In this document: positions 1 to 9,359 of the stretch, one piece after another
Layout: each line of letters opens with the position of its first letter
Numbering within the stretch: the first letter of the stretch is position 1
Assembly (NCBI GenBank): GCA_001799195.1
Contig: MGSU01000102.1
Coordinates: 1-9,359 of the forward strand
Source of the DNA: Deltaproteobacteria bacterium RIFOXYA12_FULL_61_11
Lineage (GTDB): Bacteria > Bdellovibrionota_F > JAHFAK01 > YA12-FULL-61-11
DNA: 9,359 nt
Reading direction: 5' to 3'
Made by a program: the position numbers and the translations under genes
The notes under the pieces: generated by a model
The model's input: only the letters and a program-made list of their open reading frames with translations
What the model was told of the DNA's origin: nothing
The model's database searches: none

Positions 1-538
1 CGAGGTAGCCCTGCCGCTTGGTCCTGCCGTGCAGGGTGAGGGCTGTGGGCTCGGTGTCCAAAAGCTGGGGAATCCAACGCTCTATTTCGGGCCGATCGAA
101 GCCGACCCTGGTCTTGACCGAGATGGGCAACCCCTGCGCACCCTCGCGGGTCGCCTGCACGATGGCGCAGGCGAGCTCCGGTTCTTCGATCAGGGCCGCG
201 CCCGCGCCCTGCTTGAGCACGTTGCGGTCCGGACAACCCAGGTTCACGTCGATCCCGTCGAAGCCCAGTTCGGCGGCCAACCCGGCACAGATGCGGAAAT
301 GCTCAGGGTCGCGGCCGAAGAATTGGATCACCAGCGGCCGTTCGCATGCCTCGAAGCGCAGCTCGCGGCGCAGGTTCTCCCGGCCCAGGGAGCAGAGTCC
401 GGCCGTGGTCACGAACTCGGTGACCATGAGATCGGGTTTTCCGTGCCTCGAGACCAGGGTGCGGAAGGCGCTGTCGGTGAACCCGGACATGGGCGCGAGG
501 GCGAAGAAGGGACGAGGGAGGGAGGACCACATCGACAT
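1..538 (-). CDS. dus: tRNA-dihydrouridine synthase, N-terminal 179 residues (3' end beyond the window)
   Basis: This is an FMN-dependent enzyme that reduces uridine to dihydrouridine in tRNA, in the cytoplasm, using NAD(P)H. The visible part is the TIM-barrel half of the protein. It has the FMN-site block ALAPMSGFTD (residues 13-22), QFFGRDP (72-78), the LGCPDR block with the presumed catalytic proton-donor Cys102, the GAGAAL loop, SVKTR with Lys142, and LTLHGRT with His170. These are the signature elements of the Dus family in the right order and spacing. Family members usually have about 310-350 residues, so roughly half the gene lies off the left edge. The start at 538 is the first ATG after an in-frame TAA (659-661), with GAAGG 7 nt upstream; a second ATG at 532 is less well placed. 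The subfamily (DusA, B or C) cannot be decided from this half. The GKPDLMVTEFV and KQGAGAAL wording recalls Dus proteins of Patescibacteria-type genomes, which is memory-based and uncertain. Confidence 0.95.
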   Translation of the reverse strand, partial: MSMWSSLPRPFFALAPMSGFTDSAFRTLVSRHGKPDLMVTEFVTTAGLCSLGRENLRRELRFEACERPLVIQFFGRDPEHFRICAGLAAELGFDGIDVNLGCPDRNVLKQGAGAALIEEPELACAIVQATREGAQGLPISVKTRVGFDRPEIERWIPQLLDTEPTALTLHGRTKRQGYL

Positions 539-545
539 CGGCCGG

Positions 546-550
546 CCTTC
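546..550 (-). promoter_or_regulatory. Ribosome binding site of dus
   Basis: GAAGG on the minus strand ends 7 nt before the ATG at 538. It is 13 nt from the alternative in-frame ATG at 532, so it favours the upstream start. Confidence 0.5.
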
Positions 551-580
551 GGGTGACCCGGGGTGGAGAAGTCGCGGGCA

Positions 581-609
581 CCTTTGCCGAGCACGAGGGT
601 GCTTGTCAA
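581..609 (-). promoter_or_regulatory. Candidate sigma-70-type promoter for dus
   Basis: A perfect TTGACA (609 down to 604 on the minus strand) is followed 17 nt later by CAAAGG (586-581). That hexamer is a poor -10 match, sharing only two positions with TATAAT. Spacing and location fit: the predicted start would leave a leader of about 35 nt before the dus ATG. The spacer contains a small palindrome, AGCAC-CCTC-GTGCT (590-603), which could be an operator or chance. The -10 weakness keeps this tentative. Confidence 0.3.
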
Positions 610-678
610 GGATCCATCGGGAGCGGGGGTACCCTTCAGTCTTGGGGTGGATTGCAGGTTATTCGTCACCACCTTGGG

Positions 679-705
679 GTGGCGCCGACGGGGGACCCCC
701 GCCAC
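679..705 (-). terminator. GC-rich hairpin without a U-tract (second of two after the giant gene)
   Basis: Outer arms GTGGCG (679-684) and CGCCAC (700-705) are perfectly complementary. They enclose the short palindrome CGGGGGACCCCCG (689-701), which partly overlaps the right arm. A compact, very stable hairpin is expected in RNA of either strand. No T-run follows in either direction, so classic intrinsic termination is not supported. A pause site, a 3'-end stabiliser or a Rho-associated hairpin are alternatives. Confidence 0.3.
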
Positions 706-718
706 GCGCAAGGATGAG

Positions 719-761
719 CATGGTGGGGGTGAGAGGCGACAGGACCCCTTACCCCACCATG
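719..761 (-). terminator. 10-bp perfect hairpin downstream of the giant gene, no U-tract
   Basis: CATGGTGGGG (719-728) and CCCCACCATG (752-761) are exact reverse complements separated by 23 nt. The hairpin begins 42 nt after the TGA stop of the giant gene. The stem is GC-rich, but the 3' flank on the minus strand has no run of T. It is the best candidate for separating the giant transcript from dus, as a terminator lacking a U-tract or as an end-protecting stem. Confidence 0.4.
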
Positions 762-802
762 GCTGGATCCTTACAAGCTATAAGCAATGTATTGAGAAGA
801 CC

Positions 803-3800
803 TCAGGGCGTATTGTAGCCTTCCACATAGCCATCCTGGTCGGTCTTAATGAGGACGATCTGCGTATAGTCGAGGGTCGTGTCTTTCGCGTGACCGAGGA
901 GGAGGTACCCCCCACGGTCGTAGGCGACGAGGTCTTTACTGTTTATGGCTTTGCCCGGTTGCTCGTAGGTTCGTTCGAGGCGGATCGCGCCGTCGGCCGG
1001 ATCGAGCCACAACAGCCATCCGGCAGGTCCGAGCTCCGGTCCCGAGGTCCGGTCGTAGGTACCGGCAACCACGAATACCTCGGTCTCTGGATCATCGGGG
1101 TCGTGGTGCACAAGGGCAACACCGCTGTCGTAGCCTGTCCCGCCATAGGTGTGTTCCCAGGGGCCATTGGGGCTGGTCGTCCGTCGCACCCAGAGTTGAG
1201 TAGGGGGGGAATTCCACCAGGATCCCGTAAGGAGCATGTCCGAATAGTCGGCGCTGAACAAGAGCCCGTCCGTGGCTTTGAAGTTCTCCGGGTAGGTCGC
1301 GGAGATAGTGAGGGGTGCAAGGATAGAGGTACCATTATCCTCGATCCTCCAGGCCTGGGACTGGTACGACGAGTAATTATTCGTGGTGACGGCCAGGATC
1401 GTGCCCGGGTCCGTGCTGTGCAAGGAGGTGCTCTCGCACGCGGATAAATACCCCCCGGTGACAGAACGTTCGGTACCTCCCGACATCAGGGCTCCGGTGG
1501 TACTGTTATAGAGAACGGTGAAGAGACTCGTGCCGTTCGTCTCCCGCACCGCGCCCACCACCACGAGGGTGCCATTGTCGGTCTCGTGCACGCCGCAACC
1601 GACCACCTGTTTCCCACTCTGGTTGTTCGTCTGCGACCAGGAGGGATCCCCGCTCTGGTCGACGCGGCGGAGTTGGATTTCCATGGGATTGATATGCAGG
1701 GAGAGATCCCCGAAAGTCGAGAGCAGGGCGAGGTCGGGGGTTGGGCCGTAGAGTTCGGTCAAGGCCTCGGCCTGTTCCTCGCCGTTGTCGTAGAACTGTT
1801 CCTCGAGCAACGTACCGTCTCGATTGAGGAGGTAAAGGACCACGTCTCCCGAGGGATCGTTCTCGTTGCTGGTGCCGAGCAGGGCCAACAGCCCGTCGGA
1901 GCGTTGCAACAGGGCCGTGGCCTGGTATTGTCCCCCTTCAGCTCCGTAGAACTGGATATAGGTGTCGAGCACGGTGAAGGTCCGCGGTGCCGACTGGTTG
2001 TCGGCCGTGGAGGTCTCGGGCCGCGAGAGATCGGCGTTGACCGAGGCCTGGAGGGTATACTCGCCCTCGCCCAGCCACCCCGGGATGGTGCCCTCGTCAC
2101 AGGTGACGGTAACTTGGGTACCGTGGTAGACGTCGGGCAGGACGCAGTCGTCGAGGAGTTCTCCGTTGATCCTGATCTGGCAGTTGGTGCCCGGCAGATA
2201 GTCGGCAAGACCGTCGTTCTCGATCAGGACAGTACAGGCGATGGGTCGACCTCCTGCGCCGCGGTCGAGGTCACACGAGGCGTCGACCACGGCCAGGTTG
2301 CTGGTCACGGTCAGGTCGTGGGTCAGCACGGCCTCGTTACCGGCCTGGTCGACGGTGCGCAGGTGGAATCGATAGTCCCGGGCCGGGGTTGTCGGAGTGG
2401 AAGTGAAGGGACTTGTACAGTGGTAGTACAGTGGATCAGCTCCCACGGGCGTGAGGTGGCAGTCGCTGCTCCGGAGCGATTCGCCGCAATTCCAACCGTA
2501 GGTCACTTCTGGGTTGGTGGTAGGATCCGGAGGGGTCGCCACCCAGACACACTCCGGAGCTTGGCGGTCGAGGGTGACCTGTACGGTCGAGGCCGGGCCG
2601 GGGTTGCCGAGAGCATCGTAACCGATCAGCCGGGCAGAATAGCTTCCGTCCGGGCCGACAGCAACGTTCTGGGAAGTGACCGCGCCGCCCAGGGATGAAT
2701 CGTCGAACTGGTGGGGTGGGGTAAAACTTGCCTCATCGTCCAGGGTGAACTGGTAGTGGTCGGCCCCACAACTCTTCCAGGTGAAGGTCAGACTAGGTTC
2801 TTGGGTGAAGGGCGAGAGCGGGAGGTCGAGCACGCAGGTGGGCCCCGTGGTCTGCAGCGCGAATTGATGGAGGTCCCAGGCTCCGCGGTTGCCCAGGCTG
2901 TCGAGCCCGGCGAAACGCAGGTAGTAGGTGCCCTCGCCGGGTAGACCGGGATCGTTCACGCTCAGGCCGGTGCTGCTGGGATCGGCATCCGCTTCGGTAT
3001 AGATCACCGAGGTGAAACCACTGTCTGTTGCTATTTCAACGAGATAACTTGCAGCGCACGCCAGCCAGGTGAATGCCGGGGTGACATCTCCGGTCGGGGT
3101 GGTCGGCGCATCCATGGCGCAGGTCGGGCCGGTGAGATCTACCTCGTAGGGCTTCTCGTTCCAGGAGAGTTGCACGTTCCCGAGTGCGTCGTAGCCTCGC
3201 AGCCTGACCGTCCAGACCCCTTCAGTGAGCGGGCTGTCGGGCATGAAGCTGGTTGCCGCGGTCGCATCGAGGTGCTTGATAAGGGTGTTGGCCGGATTCC
3301 GCAGCTCGACATCGTAGCTGACCGCGTCGCTACATCCCGACCAGGAGAAGGTCGGCAGGGTTTCGGTCGAGGGCGAGGTGAAGGCGGCGAAGGTGCAGTT
3401 TGGAGGCATGGTGTCGACCCTGATCTGGCGGTTGGCGTAAGGCCCTTGATTGTCAAGGTCGTCGAGGCCGGCCAGGCGGTAGTAGTACAGCCCGTCGGCG
3501 AGGTCCGGAGCCACCGTGGCAGTGGTCGCAGCGTCTTGCTGCTGGTAAACGATCATGGTGAAGGAGCTGTCGCTCGCCACCTGGAAGAGGTATTCCACCG
3601 TGTCACCACCGCAGGGCTGCCAGGTGAAGGTCGGGTTGCGGTCGTTGGTCGCGGTCGGCTGGCTGCCGAGGCCGCAGGTCGGCCCGGTCGTGTCGAGGAC
3701 GAAATCGCTCTGCCTTTGGCCGGCGTTCCCGGCCTCATCGCGGCAGCTCAGGCGATCGTACCACGGACCGTCCGGGATGAGCGGCGATCCCACCGTGGCC

Positions 3801-6800
3801 GTGAGGGAGGTCAGGTCGTACTGCGCGAAGGCAGGACTGAGGTAATCCGGGGCATCGTCCAGCACCAGGTCGTAGTGCCAGGCGACGCCGGTCCAGCGCA
3901 GCGTGGGGGTGGCATCGGCTATGCGCGTACCGGGGGTAGGATCGTACAGGCTACAGGTAGGGGCAACCGTGTCGAGGGTGTAGGGTTGCGCTGCCCACGG
4001 ACCGGGATTGCCCAGGCTGTCCACGCCGCGCAGTTCGAAGGTGTAGAGGCCGTCGGGCAAGGCCACCGTGGTATGCGAGGTGCCGGTCAGACCGGTGAGG
4101 GAAAAACCGTTGCCGGGTGGAGTCGAGGTTGCGCGCAGGTCGTAGGTGGAGGCGCCCCCGGTGCAGGTCCAGCTCAGAGACGGCGTGTTGTCGTTACCCG
4201 GGTTGGGCGTGACCGGGTTCAGGGCACAGTCCGGACCCATAGTATCGAGCGCGAAACTGATCGTGCTGTCAGGCCCCCAGATACCGAGCGCGTTCTTGCC
4301 GGCCAGCACGGCGGTGTAGGGTCCGTCCCCGGGCAGGGTGTTCAGGAAGGTATAGGAGGTCGTCGCGGGGCCAGTCAGGCTTTGCGGACCCAGCACGGTC
4401 GCTCCGCCGTGGTCGAGCACGCTGAGGCGGTACTCGACCGCTTCGGTGCAGACGGGCCAGGAGAAGTCCGGCGTGGCGTCGGCGGTCGGCGAGGGCAGCG
4501 AATATAGGACGCAGCTCGGACCGACGGAGAGGAGTTGGTAGGTTTGCTGCACCGGCGTGCCGACGTTGCCGGCCAGATCCCTGCCGGTGAGCAACACGGT
4601 ATAGGTGCCGTCGCCCGGTAGGTCGCTCTGGAGTTCGTGCTGGGTGCCGGTCAAGCCATCGACGGAGTACACGATGGCTCCGAGTGTATCGCGGACCTCG
4701 AGGTCATAGAAATCGGCGGTGCCGGACCAGGCTGGGGTCGGCGTGGGGTCGTTCGAGGGGCTGAGGAGCGTTGCCAGGAGATAGGTCGGCGCGAGGGTAT
4801 CCAAGGTAAAGGTGATTTCCGGTGCGTCGACTGGGTTGAGCCCATCGGTGCAGGTCAGTTTCACGTGATAGGTTCCATCCAGGGCCAGGGCTTCCCCGGG
4901 CGGGATGGTTGCGTCGAGAGTCGTTTCCTGCTGGAAATATTCGGTAGAAGAGTAATCTGGGTTGTTATCGACAAAGAAGTGATAGGTGATGCCTGCTCCG
5001 GCATTCTCCCAGGAGAAGGAGGGAGTTCGGTCATTGGTACTCCCCATAGGGTAGGCGGTAAGCAGACAATTCGTGGCGCCATTGGTGTCAACGCTGATAT
5101 CACGCTCCGAAGGAAGTCCTGGGTTGTCCAGGCTGTCGAAACCGACGAGGCGCAGGTAGGCGGGACCATCCGGGAGATCCTCGCCGAGGGTATAGGTGCG
5201 CGCGATCAGGCCGAGGGGGCTCTCTTGGAGCAAGTTTTGACGAGCTGGATCGCTGAAGACGGTGACCTTGTAGCTGGCTGCTCCGCAGGTCCCCCAGGTA
5301 AGGGTCGGCCTCGGGTTGTTGGTCGGGCTGACCGGCTGATCCAAGATGCAGATCGGACCGGTGCTGTCGAAGTTGAACGCCTTGCTGCTCCATTCGCCGG
5401 GATTGCCGTACTGGTCGTAGCCGCGCACCCTGGCCGTGTAGGAGCCGTCCACGGTGAGTGCATTCACCGGGGGCAGGTCGTACGGCGTCGCGGCCGTCCC
5501 GAAGACCTGGTGGGAGTACCCGGGGCCGGTCAATTCGAAGTCGTAGCTGTCGCCGCAAGTCGTCCAGATAAAGGTCGGTGTGGCCAGGTTGGTCGGGGTG
5601 GTTGGTTGGGTGAGGAGGCAGTTAGGGCCGGTGCGATCCAGCTCGTAGTAGGCCGTCTTGGTAGCGCCGAGGTTACCGAGCAGGTCGATCCCGGTGATTT
5701 CCAGGCGGTACTCGCCGTCCTGGGTCAGGGTAGGACTGGTATAGCTGGTCGCCGGGCTTCCGCTCTCTTGCTGGAGCAACCCCCCTCCCGGGCCGAAGAA
5801 GGTGATTTCATAGACGTCTGCGTCGACCGAGGTCCACCCGAAGACCGGTTCTTGGTCGTTGCCGGGCGAAGAGGGCAGGACATTGAAGGCCACCATCGGC
5901 CCGGTGGTATCGACCTCGAGAGGCACGCTGTCCCAGGGGCTCGGGTTGCCGGCTTGATCGAAACCGCGCATGCGGAGCTCGTAGGTGCCGTCGGGTAAGG
6001 AATTGACGACCTGGTACGAGGTGGAGATCAACCCCGGTTCGTTGATCACCTCGCCACCGAGGTGATCGAGGAGCAGCAACTCGTAACGCACACCGCAGGC
6101 GTTCCAGGCGAAGCTCGGCGTGTCATCGCGGGTCGGGGTGGCGAAGGAGGCCACGGTGCAGGTAGGCGGGGTGAGGTCGATGCTGAGGGGCAGCACCGCG
6201 AAGGGCCCGCGATTGCCGAGCTCATCCACACCGGCCAGGTGAACGGTGTAGTCTCCCTCGGCCAGGGGCGGGAGGGGATACGTGGTGGTAGTCAGGTTCG
6301 AGACCGTGTGTTCCGGAGTACCGCCGAGGCGCACCTCGAGTTCGTACTCCGAGGCTCCGCTACACGTGGTCCAGTTGATGATCGGGGTTGCCTCGTTGGT
6401 CGGCGAGGTCTGCGCTGGGAGGGCGCAGGTCGGTCCGGTCAAGTCGAGGGAGAATTGCCTGCTGTCCCAGGGGCCGTTGTTCAGGCCGTCGTTGCCGCGC
6501 AGGCGCACGGTATAGATGCCTTCCTCGGTCAAGGTCAGTCCGGAGGGATACGAGGTGCCGGCCAGGCCGGGCAGGTCGAAGAGCAGGTTTGAGGTCGGCC
6601 CGAGGAGCTGGAGCTGGTACGAGACCTCACCGCAGTCGTTCCAGGCGAAGGTCGGTTGGGCTTCGGCGTTCGGAGAGAGCGGTGGTACCAGGGTACAGGT
6701 CGGGCCGATCCGGTCGAGTTCGAAGGCGTGGACGTCCTCGGTACCGCGGTTGCCGAGCGAGTCGAGTCCGGCTAGGCGGACATAATAGGGGCCGTCTTGG

Positions 6801-9359
6801 GGCAGGTCCTGGAGGTATGTGGTTGAGGTCGCTGGGCCGAGGTACTGGTAGAGCGTGGGGGTGAAAGCAGGGTCGGCGGCGAGTTCGAGGACATAGCTGA
6901 CCGCGCCGGAGCAGATCGGCCAGGAGAAGGTCGGGGTGGGGTCGTTGAGCCTGGCCGGAGGTGTCGGCAGGAAGCAATTCGGACCGGTGGAGTCGAAGAG
7001 GAAGGTTCGCAGCGAGGCCGGACCCGCGTTGTCGAGGCCGTCGTAACCGACGAGGGCCACCGAGTAGCTCGTGTCGGCCGATAGGTCCACGGGGAGGACC
7101 GCCGAGGTGCCGGTCAGGCCCGTGAACTGGTGGATGAGCGTCCCGGCGGTAGTGGTGACGGTCAGGTCGTAGCTCGTCGCGCAGGCGTTCCAGGAAAAGG
7201 TCGGCCGGGGGACGTTGGTCGGTGAATTCGGCGCGTTGAGCGCGCAGCTCGGTCCGGTGCGGTCCAGCTCGTAGACTTGGGTGTTCCACGTTCCGTCATT
7301 GCCGAGGTTGTCGTAGCCGCGCAGGCGCGCGTAATACGTTCCGTCTCGCGGCAGAGGGGAGGCGAGGGGCGATGAGGTGGAGGTGAGGGTGTTATACTGC
7401 AGGATGGTCGTGAAATCGGCGTCGGCGGCGACCTCGAACTGGTACCACGCGGCGCAGGCGTTCCACGTGAAGGTCGGGAGGACCTCCCTCGAGGGGGTCG
7501 GGAGTGGGTCGAGCACGCACACCGGACCGTGGAGCTGCAAGACGAAGCTCTGCTGGCTCCAGGCGCCGACATTGCCGGCTAGGTCCTTGCCGCGCAGGCG
7601 TAAGTAGTATTCGCCGTCGAGGGTCAGGGGATCATTTTCCAGGCTGAGGTTGGTCGAGAGCGTATCGGCCCAGAAGTGGACGATGGAGGCTGGCGCGAAG
7701 AACGGGTCGCTGGCCAACTCGACGTCATAGAGGTCGGCACAGGCATTGAAGGTGAAGATCGGGCGGTCGTTGTTGGTCGGTGACACCAAGGGCGGCAAGG
7801 AACAGACCGGCGGAGTGAGGTCGATGGTCAGGGGCTGCAGGGACCAGGTGCTGGCGTTGCCGGCCAGGTCGAAGCCTCGCAACCTCACCCATAGCTCGCC
7901 CTCGGGCAGGGGTTCGGTCGTGGGCACGGAGAAGGACGTACCGATGAGTGGCTGATAGGTTCGCAGCACGGTGGTGAAGAGCTCGTCGCTGCCGAGCTGC
8001 AGCTCATAGTGGTCGGCGCATGCGTTCCAGTGCAGAGTCGGGGTCCGGAGGAGGCTCGGCGAGGCCGGGGGCACGAGCGCGCAGGTCGGCGCGGAGGTGT
8101 CCAGGACGAGGACGATGGTCACGGGCGACGAGGCATTGCCCAGGCTGTCGTAGGCCACGAGTTCGTATTCATTGGTGCCGGGAGCCAACGCAGCGGAGCC
8201 GGCCCAGCGTTGTTCGGAGGCGCAGCGGTTGTCGAGACCGGCGGCGCTGCCGTTGAGTTCGAGCAGGGCCGTTTCTGGGGAGCAGACCCCGGCGAGTTGC
8301 ACCGTGGGCATGGCGGTCTGGAAAGGAGTTGTGCCCGGCGGATTGGTGACCACGGGCGAGGCCGGCCCGGTCCGGTCCACGGTCCAGCGATAGCTCGGGT
8401 CGAGCGAGGTCAGGTTCCCGGCTGGGTCCTCGAGGCGCAACTCGAAGCTGTGCTCGCCCTCGCCGAGGCCCGGGAAGAGTTGCGAGGCTTGACAGGGCAG
8501 GAAGGGTAGATCGTCGATGCGGCAGGTCGCGAGGACGCTCTCGTCGGAACGATAGGTGAACAGCGCGGAGGTCTCGCGCGTCCTTTCCGCGGGAGCAGCA
8601 GCTAGGTCCAGGGACGGAGCCTGGGTATCGAGGATCACCTCGGCGCGACGTTGCACGCTGTGGCCTCCTTCGAAGCGGAATTCGCCGAGCACGGTATGAG
8701 GTCCGTCAGGAGCCGCGCCCAGGTCGACGACCGCGGACGTAGCGAAGGGTTGCCAGGCAGCAGGGCCGAGCAGGTCGGCGGAGGCAGCGAGACGCATCTC
8801 GGTCACCGGGTATCGGGCCTCGATTACTGCCTCGACCTGGTAGTGATTAACATACCCCCCCCGCGTGACGAGAGAGAGGGTGACCAGGTCATCAGGCGGC
8901 GGGACGAGCGTACAAGTAACAGTTTTTTGGGTTATTTTTTGGGGGATACCGGCATCGCGGACCGCGAGTTCGAAGTTCAGGGTTGTACCCGGGCTCTCGT
9001 CGAACGGGCTGAACAGGAGATGGTCCCGGGACCGTTCGGCAAAAGTGGGCAGACCCTCGACCTCAGCCAGGAGGTAATCGCCGTCCGGGTCCGAGGCCTG
9101 CAGGGGGAGTTGACTGACCACGCCGACCGGCAGCTCGCAGCGTTCGGGAGTGGCGATGACCGGCGGTCGGTTTTCCTTTGTGACCAGGTCGATGCGCTCG
9201 GGGAAGAAGACCATGGGCACGTCGTCGAGGGTGAGTTGGTAGAATTGTCCGGCCTGGCCGCTGACGAGCACGAGGCGCACGGCCAGCGCTGAGAATTGGC
9301 CGCGCAGGCTGCAATAGACGGTCATTTCGTCCTCGCCCAGACCGGCGGGGATGCAGCGT
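803..9359 (-). CDS. Giant secreted/surface modular protein: Ig-like domains, 21 FnIII-like modules, CARDB-like domain and C-terminal propeller (5' end beyond the window)
   Basis: The frame is open without a stop from the right edge to TGA at 803-805, giving 2,851 visible residues. An ATG at 9325 is not taken as the start: the frame continues upstream (RCIPAGLGEDE) with no stop before the edge, and no ribosome binding site is evident. Residue numbers here count that Met as 1. The order is: beta-rich stretch (1-52), cadherin/Ig-like (53-144), unnamed beta-sandwich (145-232), two-Cys Ig-like (233-316), Big-type Ig-like (317-408), 21 FnIII-like modules (409-2342), CARDB-like (2343-2453) and seven blade-like repeats (2456-2840). 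No membrane segment, LPXTG motif or other C-terminal sorting signal is visible; the protein simply ends VEGYNTP. Any signal peptide would be off the window. It is Lys-poor (18 Lys in 2,840 residues) and rich in paired Cys, as expected for an oxidising extracellular setting. A surface or secreted adhesin or stalk is the likely role, but that is inference; I do not recognise a named family for the whole protein. Confidence 0.96.
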   Translation of the reverse strand, partial: RCIPAGLGEDEMTVYCSLRGQFSALAVRLVLVSGQAGQFYQLTLDDVPMVFFPERIDLVTKENRPPVIATPERCELPVGVVSQLPLQASDPDGDYLLAEVEGLPTFAERSRDHLLFSPFDESPGTTLNFELAVRDAGIPQKITQKTVTCTLVPPPDDLVTLSLVTRGGYVNHYQVEAVIEARYPVTEMRLAASADLLGPAAWQPFATSAVVDLGAAPDGPHTVLGEFRFEGGHSVQRRAEVILDTQAPSLDLAAAPAERTRETSALFTYRSDESVLATCRIDDLPFLPCQASQLFPGLGEGEHSFELRLEDPAGNLTSLDPSYRWTVDRTGPASPVVTNPPGTTPFQTAMPTVQLAGVCSPETALLELNGSAAGLDNRCASEQRWAGSAALAPGTNEYELVAYDSLGNASSPVTIVLVLDTSAPTCALVPPASPSLLRTPTLHWNACADHYELQLGSDELFTTVLRTYQPLIGTSFSVPTTEPLPEGELWVRLRGFDLAGNASTWSLQPLTIDLTPPVCSLPPLVSPTNNDRPIFTFNACADLYDVELASDPFFAPASIVHFWADTLSTNLSLENDPLTLDGEYYLRLRGKDLAGNVGAWSQQSFVLQLHGPVCVLDPLPTPSREVLPTFTWNACAAWYQFEVAADADFTTILQYNTLTSTSSPLASPLPRDGTYYARLRGYDNLGNDGTWNTQVYELDRTGPSCALNAPNSPTNVPRPTFSWNACATSYDLTVTTTAGTLIHQFTGLTGTSAVLPVDLSADTSYSVALVGYDGLDNAGPASLRTFLFDSTGPNCFLPTPPARLNDPTPTFSWPICSGAVSYVLELAADPAFTPTLYQYLGPATSTTYLQDLPQDGPYYVRLAGLDSLGNRGTEDVHAFELDRIGPTCTLVPPLSPNAEAQPTFAWNDCGEVSYQLQLLGPTSNLLFDLPGLAGTSYPSGLTLTEEGIYTVRLRGNDGLNNGPWDSRQFSLDLTGPTCALPAQTSPTNEATPIINWTTCSGASEYELEVRLGGTPEHTVSNLTTTTYPLPPLAEGDYTVHLAGVDELGNRGPFAVLPLSIDLTPPTCTVASFATPTRDDTPSFAWNACGVRYELLLLDHLGGEVINEPGLISTSYQVVNSLPDGTYELRMRGFDQAGNPSPWDSVPLEVDTTGPMVAFNVLPSSPGNDQEPVFGWTSVDADVYEITFFGPGGGLLQQESGSPATSYTSPTLTQDGEYRLEITGIDLLGNLGATKTAYYELDRTGPNCLLTQPTTPTNLATPTFIWTTCGDSYDFELTGPGYSHQVFGTAATPYDLPPVNALTVDGSYTARVRGYDQYGNPGEWSSKAFNFDSTGPICILDQPVSPTNNPRPTLTWGTCGAASYKVTVFSDPARQNLLQESPLGLIARTYTLGEDLPDGPAYLRLVGFDSLDNPGLPSERDISVDTNGATNCLLTAYPMGSTNDRTPSFSWENAGAGITYHFFVDNNPDYSSTEYFQQETTLDATIPPGEALALDGTYHVKLTCTDGLNPVDAPEITFTLDTLAPTYLLATLLSPSNDPTPTPAWSGTADFYDLEVRDTLGAIVYSVDGLTGTQHELQSDLPGDGTYTVLLTGRDLAGNVGTPVQQTYQLLSVGPSCVLYSLPSPTADATPDFSWPVCTEAVEYRLSVLDHGGATVLGPQSLTGPATTSYTFLNTLPGDGPYTAVLAGKNALGIWGPDSTISFALDTMGPDCALNPVTPNPGNDNTPSLSWTCTGGASTYDLRATSTPPGNGFSLTGLTGTSHTTVALPDGLYTFELRGVDSLGNPGPWAAQPYTLDTVAPTCSLYDPTPGTRIADATPTLRWTGVAWHYDLVLDDAPDYLSPAFAQYDLTSLTATVGSPLIPDGPWYDRLSCRDEAGNAGQRQSDFVLDTTGPTCGLGSQPTATNDRNPTFTWQPCGGDTVEYLFQVASDSSFTMIVYQQQDAATTATVAPDLADGLYYYRLAGLDDLDNQGPYANRQIRVDTMPPNCTFAAFTSPSTETLPTFSWSGCSDAVSYDVELRNPANTLIKHLDATAATSFMPDSPLTEGVWTVRLRGYDALGNVQLSWNEKPYEVDLTGPTCAMDAPTTPTGDVTPAFTWLACAASYLVEIATDSGFTSVIYTEADADPSSTGLSVNDPGLPGEGTYYLRFAGLDSLGNRGAWDLHQFALQTTGPTCVLDLPLSPFTQEPSLTFTWKSCGADHYQFTLDDEASFTPPHQFDDSSLGGAVTSQNVAVGPDGSYSARLIGYDALGNPGPASTVQVTLDRQAPECVWVATPPDPTTNPEVTYGWNCGESLRSSDCHLTPVGADPLYYHCTSPFTSTPTTPARDYRFHLRTVDQAGNEAVLTHDLTVTSNLAVVDASCDLDRGAGGRPIACTVLIENDGLADYLPGTNCQIRINGELLDDCVLPDVYHGTQVTVTCDEGTIPGWLGEGEYTLQASVNADLSRPETSTADNQSAPRTFTVLDTYIQFYGAEGGQYQATALLQRSDGLLALLGTSNENDPSGDVVLYLLNRDGTLLEEQFYDNGEEQAEALTELYGPTPDLALLSTFGDLSLHINPMEIQLRRVDQSGDPSWSQTNNQSGKQVVGCGVHETDNGTLVVVGAVRETNGTSLFTVLYNSTTGALMSGGTERSVTGGYLSACESTSLHSTDPGTILAVTTNNYSSYQSQAWRIEDNGTSILAPLTISATYPENFKATDGLLFSADYSDMLLTGSWWNSPPTQLWVRRTTSPNGPWEHTYGGTGYDSGVALVHHDPDDPETEVFVVAGTYDRTSGPELGPAGWLLWLDPADGAIRLERTYEQPGKAINSKDLVAYDRGGYLLLGHAKDTTLDYTQIVLIKTDQDGYVEGYNTP
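806..1960 (-). other. C-terminal seven-blade beta-propeller-like domain of the giant protein
   Basis: Residues 2456-2840 hold seven degenerate repeats of about 47-56 residues, starting near 2466, 2516, 2572, 2624, 2681, 2732 and 2790. Each has a G-x-L-x-x-x-G-x strand, a charged or Ser/Asn-rich loop, a hydrophobic strand and a D-x-x-G turn. Clear examples are DGLLALLGTS then LLNRDGTLLE, GTLVVVGAV, and the last, GGYLLLGHAKDTTLDYTQIV then IKTDQDGY. The same pattern is seen in bacterial secreted propellers with DGG-Y-x-x-x-G-x-T blades. Seven is a common propeller number and the last blade ends exactly at the stop. Cys2577 and Cys2630, in the third and fourth repeats, could form one bridge. A terminal binding head is a reasonable inference; no ligand can be named. 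Confidence 0.6.
1967..2299 (-). other. CARDB-like, Cys-rich domain of the giant protein
   Basis: Residues 2343-2453 run from NLAVVDASCD through CTVLIENDGLADYLPG, CQIRINGELLDDC, VTVTC and LGEGEYTLQASVNAD to ETSTADNQS. The vN-x-G strand, the Y-x-L-x-A-x-V-D strand and the E-T-x-x-x-DN end are the hallmark of CARDB/APHP-type Ig-like adhesion domains. It has five Cys (2351, 2364, 2382, 2394 and 2409), unusual for CARDB. The odd number implies a free Cys or pairing with a neighbour. Confidence 0.65.
2300..8101 (-). repeat. Array of 21 tandem FnIII-like two-Cys modules (about 92 residues, 276 bp each)
   Basis: Residues 409-2342 repeat one pattern. It has a D-x-T-G-P-x-C linker, S-P-T-N-D, P-T-F-x-W-x-x-C, Y-x-L-x-V, a T-S-Y turn, D-G-x-Y-x-x-R-L-x-G and D-x-L-G-N-x-G-x-W, then the next linker. 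This matches the FnIII-type strand order. The first-Cys positions are 415, 508, 603, 694, 784, 877, 967, 1056, (1145), 1236, 1326, 1420, (1515), 1605, 1700, 1791, 1884, 1977, 2069, 2164 and 2259; brackets mark modules with another residue there. Spacing stays within 89-95 residues, mean 92.2. By eye the modules are well diverged, with no long identical DNA stretches, so the array looks old rather than freshly expanded. The last module (from about 2253) is the most divergent, with four Cys. A rigid extended spacer or stalk is the natural inference. Confidence 0.9.
8102..8377 (-). other. Big-type Ig-like domain of the giant protein, preceding the module array
   Basis: Residues 317-408 contain PTVQLAGVCSPETALLELNG, LAPGTNEYELVAYDSLGNAS and VTIVLVLD. 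This follows the strand order of bacterial Big-type domains (T-V-L-x-G, then V-x-V-N-G, then L-x-x-G-x-N, then D-x-x-GN). Two Cys (in AGVC and NRCAS) may pair. It directly abuts the first FnIII-like module. Confidence 0.6.
8378..8629 (-). other. Two-Cys bacterial Ig-like domain of the giant protein
   Basis: Residues 233-316 fit a well-known bacterial Ig-like pattern: linker DTQAPS, strand SALFTYRSDES, then ATCRIDDLPFLPC, a GLGEGEHSFELRLEDPAGN turn and the closing YRWTVDRTGP. The two Cys in the CRIDD/FLPC segment are a known feature of that domain type and are placed differently from those of the 21 later modules. Confidence 0.7.
8630..8893 (-). other. Unnamed beta-sandwich domain of the giant protein
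   Basis: Residues 145-232 alternate hydrophobic and polar residues as in a beta-sandwich and have no Cys. The stretch VEAVIEARYPVTEMRLAAS, a PDGPHTVLGEF turn and the closing ILDTQAP linker resemble a Big-type Ig-like fold that describes a variation followed by its sum. I cannot assign a family. The first strand is encoded across a G8 run. Confidence 0.45.
8855..8945. repeat. Homopolymer cluster inside the giant gene (C8, T6, T6, G5)
   Basis: The plus strand has C8 at 8855-8862, T6 at 8923-8928, T6 at 8935-8940 and G5 at 8941-8945. A 9-bp direct repeat TTTTTTGGG sits at 8923-8931 and 8935-8943, with period 12. In the coding strand these are G8 (Arg-Gly-Gly) and two AAAAAA tracts encoding PQKITQK. 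They stand out in a gene otherwise poor in AAA codons. Confidence 0.7.
8894..9169 (-). other. Cadherin-like/Ig-like (He-PIG type) domain of the giant protein
   Basis: Residues 53-144 begin with NRPPVIATPER and continue to LQASDPDGDYLLAEVEG, then a beta-rich tail ending in VTCTLVPPP. The A-x-DPDGD motif followed by a hydrophobic strand is the hallmark of bacterial cadherin-like and putative Ig (He-PIG) domains, where the Asp residues commonly bind calcium. Cys63 and Cys138 lie at the two ends of the domain and could pair. The last strand is encoded by unusual homopolymer tracts. Confidence 0.65.

Follow-up and report, generated by a model that had tools for sequence, protein, structure and literature searches.

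A putative giant exported lipoprotein with 21 tandem Big_13-type modules and paired cysteines

The giant gene, its neighbors and its domain layout

The stretch of DNA analyzed here (the window, 9,359 nucleotides) corresponds to bases 1-9359 of the 12,325-base contig C102, part of a fragmented assembly of 4.64 Mb in 342 contigs with 87% completeness. Most of the window is taken up by one minus-strand frame that holds a truncated gene (Table 1). A scaffold gap lies directly past the window end (an N run in the L031:9359-9380 region, read as six X in translation), and in the extended contig, L031, the whole gene occupies positions 803-10099. Beyond the gap, the same frame reaches a start region, MYAILTAVLSLAVLLTACNDDDK, and the N-terminus reads as a signal peptide that ends in a lipobox cysteine, MYAILTAVLSLAVLLTAC, the hallmark of a bacterial lipoprotein. 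Because of this lipobox signal peptide, recognized by reading the sequence of a gene that is bridged by the scaffold gap, the product is predicted to be a lipoprotein that is exported and has a length of about 3,100 residues. The reading frame across the gap would hinge on the length of the N run, and the ATG within the window is, on this reading, not the true start of the gene.

Between the lipobox and the gap is a five-residue repeat, ALPAN/ALPAS, in about 12 copies (P0002 residues about 163-226), a region with a weak match to the Pfam family GLTT (E 0.045). The upstream gene (L031:10285-12324, minus strand) encodes a subtilisin-like (S8) protease, as judged from its HGTHVSG and GTSMATPSVAGF motifs, and is possibly cotranscribed with the giant gene. 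Downstream, a partial gene at window positions 2-538 (minus strand) reads as tRNA-dihydrouridine synthase (Dus).

Table 1. Features of the giant gene within the window, with cysteine residues in P0001 numbering
Feature	Positions	Strand	Basis
3' part of giant lipoprotein gene (P0001; 2851 aa, running off the window end)	803..9358	minus	ORF and contig extension
Two Ig-like stretches preceding the array, their Cys pairs spaced differently (C279/C289, C359/C379)	8102..8629	minus	sequence and Cys count
Array of 21 Big_13-type Ig-like modules, about 92 aa each	2288..8101	minus	module split and alignment; Pfam PF19077, E 6.7e-53
Module 9, without either Cys; retains the Asp aligned with a putative SiiE Ca2+-ligand Asp (WTSVDADVY)	5639..5911	minus	Cys table, Asp comparison
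Module 12, Cys2 lost; replacement C1503 at end of strand F	4802..5086	minus	Cys table; Cys at model residue 173, in predicted strand F (166-174)
Module 13, likewise without either Cys; same SiiE-aligned Asp retained (WSGTADFY)	4532..4801	minus	Cys table, Asp comparison
Module 16, Cys2 lost; replacement C1872 in the same strand F alignment column	3695..3973	minus	Cys table; Cys at model residue 77, in predicted strand F (69-78)
Module 19, typical canonical module: Cys1 in GPxC, Cys2 at Trp+3	2855..3139	minus	module alignment
Module 21, divergent, four Cys	2288..2569	minus	Cys table
CARDB-like stretch, five Cys (odd), P0001 2358-2455	1994..2287	minus	by reading; no Pfam match
C-terminal domain, propeller-like repeats, two Cys	806..1993	minus	by reading; no Pfam match

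Family, predicted fold and cysteine pattern of the modules

The array covers P0001 residues 420-2357, in modules of 89-95 residues that share a mean identity of about 34%. The initial annotation had called these modules FnIII-like and had proposed a Pfam search. In Pfam, the modules were assigned to Big_13 (PF19077), at 177.9 bits against a gathering cut-off of 27 bits, and fn3 was absent among the nine Pfam families matched at E values of 1 or below. AlphaFold2 models of modules 11-12 (pLDDT 94.1) and 16-17 (pLDDT 95.7) gave a confident Ig/FnIII fold with strand G predicted last in all four modules. The predicted fold superposes on FnIII domains as a seven-strand beta-sandwich: compared with the PDB, the predicted models had 405 matches at E<=0.001 with FnIII tandems at the top, and the VIA Z was about 11. 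The FnIII label is accordingly apt for the predicted fold and not for the profile: the modules are best assigned, by profile, to Big_13, an Ig-like family related to the Salmonella giant adhesin SiiE, with a predicted fold that matches FnIII tandems. The modelled tandems superpose on FnIII tandems, on SiiE BIg domains and on GhpA, the Aureispira grappling hook protein, and the module pair fits SiiE and the best GhpA chains more closely than it fits most human FnIII tandems.

The paired-cysteine pattern that was first reported for the array is real. Both canonical cysteines are present in 17 of the 21 modules, at a spacing of 21 residues (22 in module 20), and module 21 adds two further cysteines to its canonical pair. 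Modules 9 and 13 contain no cysteine at all. The remaining two modules retain the first cysteine and have a second one elsewhere, in strand F: C1431 and C1503 in module 12, C1802 and C1872 in module 16 (P0001 residue numbers, which are those of the initial annotation plus 11). C1503 and C1872 fall in a single alignment column, where L-x-C-x-D replaces the L-x-G-x-D of the other modules. The first cysteine is kept in 18/20 of modules 1-20 (19/21 overall). Cysteine counts are even in 21/21 modules, and a pair, canonical or compensated, is present in 19/21. Outside the array, the parity rule is broken within the same exported protein by the five cysteines of residues 2358-2455.

Predicted strand positions are compatible with pairing of the cysteines inside each module. 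In the model of module 16, strand A (7-11) begins with Cys1, which would lie across from the end of strand B (24-29), strands A and B running antiparallel; in that of module 11, Cys2 (28) follows strand B (22-25) by three residues. Given how strands are arranged in the Ig/FnIII fold, Cys1, Cys2 and the end of strand F, where the predicted strand holds the replacement cysteines of modules 12 and 16, would all be located at the N-terminal pole of the module. Cys1 and the strand F cysteine should both face the core, since Cys1 alternates in phase with residue 9, a conserved hydrophobic position, and the strand F cysteine with a conserved Leu two residues earlier.

VKOR-DsbA and DsbA proteins form an oxidative folding machinery outside the cytoplasm. 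The genome encodes two separate VKOR-DsbA fusions (C338:12107-13228 and C133:2249-3415) as well as two further DsbA-like lipoproteins with CPFC (CxxC) motifs.

Comparison with known systems and with other Big_13-type arrays

SiiE also has a giant stalk of tandem Ig-like domains. Its BIg domains (PDB 2yn3/2yn5) are the best PDB profile match to the modules (E 3.8e-8), and the tandems superpose at 3.3-4.0 A over 174 residues. SiiE is a substrate of type 1 secretion, whereas the protein described here has a lipobox. GhpA (PDB 9fly, 9flv) is likewise a giant bacterial protein of tandem beta-sandwiches, and its best chains can be superposed with the tandem pair at 2.8-3.7 A (about 160 residues); the relation is one of fold only, and sequence searches gave no GhpA match.

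The view that no bridge from strand A to the BC loop had been described was too strong. In the Ig-like subunits of chaperone-usher systems, such as DraE and FimA, a disulfide between strands A and B is conserved in 90% of 16,900 sequences (PMC5625045). It is positioned towards the N-terminus of strand A, which is the site of force transmission, and a bond between the cysteines here would be placed similarly. The DraE bond joins Cys3 to Cys35, whereas Cys2 of the present modules is situated just beyond strand B. Fimbrial subunits, moreover, have an incomplete Ig fold without strand G and polymerize by donor-strand exchange, in contrast to the modules here, which have a predicted strand G and are covalently tandem. 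A second parallel is the first FnIII domain of class I cytokine receptors, with a disulfide-linked CX9-10CXW pair (PMC1963337). That pair is spaced by 9-10 residues and its second cysteine precedes the Trp, whereas the present modules read CX20C, a spacing of 20 residues, with Cys2 after the Trp (at Trp+3 in most); the receptor domain has a second cysteine pair as well. Staples from strand A to strand B are known in Ig-like domains, and the exact spacing and arrangement seen here was found in no other protein searched.

Searches for homologues with the pair were of a kind that relatives with other spacings would escape. No relative was confirmed in genome contigs. The strict DNA pattern D..GPxC...PxFxWxxC, which hits seven modules of the window, had 10 matches in genome contigs, all in stop-broken frames or unrelated sequence and attributable to chance, as was the one match of a looser DNA pattern in viral contigs (a stop-broken frame or unrelated sequence). 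With modules 3-4 as the tblastn query, phages and plasmids yielded no match, and neither did the other genome of the host phylum, of which the set searched contains two in all. Among 386 whole genomes across Bacteria, Big_13-like modules were present and none had the cysteine pair. In the open-access literature, we found no description of an intramodule disulfide in tandem Big_13/SiiE-type arrays.

Other bacteria have Big_13-type arrays, those of genomes G030, G068, G209 and G177 (the phylum of G068 is likewise represented by two genomes only), which are tandem, belong to the same family by profile and lie in frames as long as 9114 aa. They are practically cysteine-free and have a nearly invariant Asp or Glu at Tyr-2, two residues before an invariant Tyr. 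G030 itself carries many such giant arrays (contigs C6, C40, C44 and others), including frames up to the length given above and almost without cysteine.

The Tyr-2 position may bear on calcium binding. In SiiE, Ca2+ clamps each joint by way of three Asp, one from the linker of the preceding domain and two from the following domain (PMC5466336). Two of these have counterparts here, in that an Asp in the linker and one in the FG motif DxLGN (of the form DxxGN) are retained and common in the modules. The residue aligned with the third, the BC Asp at Tyr-2, is present in 6/20 modules only, alongside the cysteine pair, so the modules do not carry linker, BC and FG Asp throughout as in a SiiE type I site. 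Profile alignment places Tyr-2 against an Asp in both matched SiiE BIg domains, and we infer that it corresponds to SiiE 43D, a putative Ca2+ ligand. Asp or Glu occupies Tyr-2 in 167/190 (88%) of the Cys-less Big_13-like modules of other genomes, most of which come from four genomes, against 4/18 of the Cys-bearing modules here (Fisher p 6e-9, uncorrected for relatedness). Both Cys-less modules of the array, 9 and 13, keep the Asp (within-protein p 0.08). Sporadic modules elsewhere have neither the Asp nor the cysteines.

A proposed disulfide staple and its alternatives

We consider it likely that the 21 Big_13 modules build the surface stalk of an exported giant lipoprotein, in which 19 modules each have one intramodule disulfide at the N-terminal pole that stiffens or protects the joint and may partly replace a Ca2+ clamp. 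In 17 modules, Cys1, which opens strand A immediately behind the linker between modules, would bond to Cys2 just past strand B; in modules 12 and 16 it would bond instead to the core-facing cysteine at the end of strand F. The VKOR-DsbA enzymes probably form the bonds during export. Such a staple would pin strand A, where tension from the preceding module enters, to the core, and the joint would thereby be stiffened or protected. The initial annotation had proposed that each module forms a single disulfide in an oxidising compartment. Parity, compensation, the lipobox signal peptide and the VKOR-DsbA and DsbA genes all favor this proposal, which would apply to 19 of the 21 modules and not to every one.

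The mechanical part of this reading borrows from DraE. Without its A-B disulfide, the Tm of DraE falls from 87 to 65 C, and strand A is the first to detach in steered simulations; the authors of that study regard the placement of the disulfide as an adaptation to shear, with force entering via strand A (PMC5625045). We carry this reasoning over because the staple would directly follow the linker. It is also possible, if somewhat unlikely, that the intramodule disulfide is real but only a general stabilizer of the fold, protecting it from proteases for instance, and has nothing to do with force or a Ca2+ clamp. Exported beta-sandwiches are commonly stabilized by disulfides, the gene adjoining the giant gene encodes the subtilisin-like peptidase, and some Cys-less comparison modules lack the Asp too; against this, the staple is at the N-terminal pole next to the joint, and the loss of Asp is strong when the best-matching relatives are taken for comparison.

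In giant adhesins of the SiiE kind, joint stiffness is achieved through Ca2+, and the disulfide staple may partly take over from such a clamp, which we offer as a lead and not as proof. A bolder form of this idea, which we put forward tentatively and hold to be doubtful, is that in this lineage a covalent disulfide staple took the place of the Ca2+ clamp of a SiiE-like stalk in one module after another, at the same pole, with stiffness becoming independent of Ca2+ and modules 9 and 13, which retain the Asp, representing the remaining Ca2+-dependent joints. An array in which disulfide-bearing modules occur beside disulfide-free ones that retain this Asp would allow a direct test of whether staple and clamp are interchangeable. 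If the staple is real, the A-to-B solution of pilins would have been reached independently in an unrelated, covalently tandem stalk.

A further alternative is that the cysteines were merely inherited from a Cys-bearing ancestor and are even in number by chance, with no requirement for a disulfide. The case for it lies in the small number of departures. Cysteine co-variation had been claimed across all 21 modules, and every count is indeed even; the parity nevertheless rests on four departing modules, possibly representing only two events. Both modules without the first cysteine also lack the second (p=0.029, exact placement probability), and even parity in every module, with the compensating column counted in, has p=1.4e-4 (exact placement, with three columns filled independently). 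When modules 9/13 and 12/16 are each taken as one inherited event, these values become 0.105 for the joint loss and 0.0055 for full parity. AU tests reject neither grouping (p 0.39 and 0.46), and the module trees lack the resolution needed to count events. Duplication of a four-module block (9-12 to 13-16) was considered as the origin of the repeated departures and rejected, as identities at an offset of four are not raised. Because the modules are only about 34% identical, unconstrained cysteines should have decayed, and the sequences point to cysteines kept by selection and not by recent copying. The two compensating cysteines moreover share one column of strand F, and the protein is predicted to be exported in an organism with an oxidative folding system. 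Inheritance by itself is therefore an improbable explanation.

It is more improbable still that the pairs cross-link adjacent modules at the joint, for example Cys2 with Cys1 of the next module. Cys1 adjoins the inter-module linker, where contact with the preceding module is conceivable; the double losses in modules 9 and 13 would, however, have stranded partners in modules 8, 10, 12 and 14, which keep their pairs, and the compensation in modules 12 and 16 took place within the same module. Since modules 9 and 13 lost both cysteines and their neighbors were not left with a single one, we favor pairing within the module. Least probable of all are thiols that bind metal or are free or redox-active, for although pairs beside Asp-rich loops could hold a soft metal, the alignment has no CxxC, CxxCH or conserved His close to the pair, and thiols of exported proteins are normally oxidised where the genome encodes VKOR-DsbA.

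Another type of Ig-like module precedes the array at 8320-8629 (minus strand, P0001 244-346). It has a short-spaced cysteine pair, ATCRIDDLPFLPC, which resembles the TFECSLNGS...AC motif of a further locus, L085.
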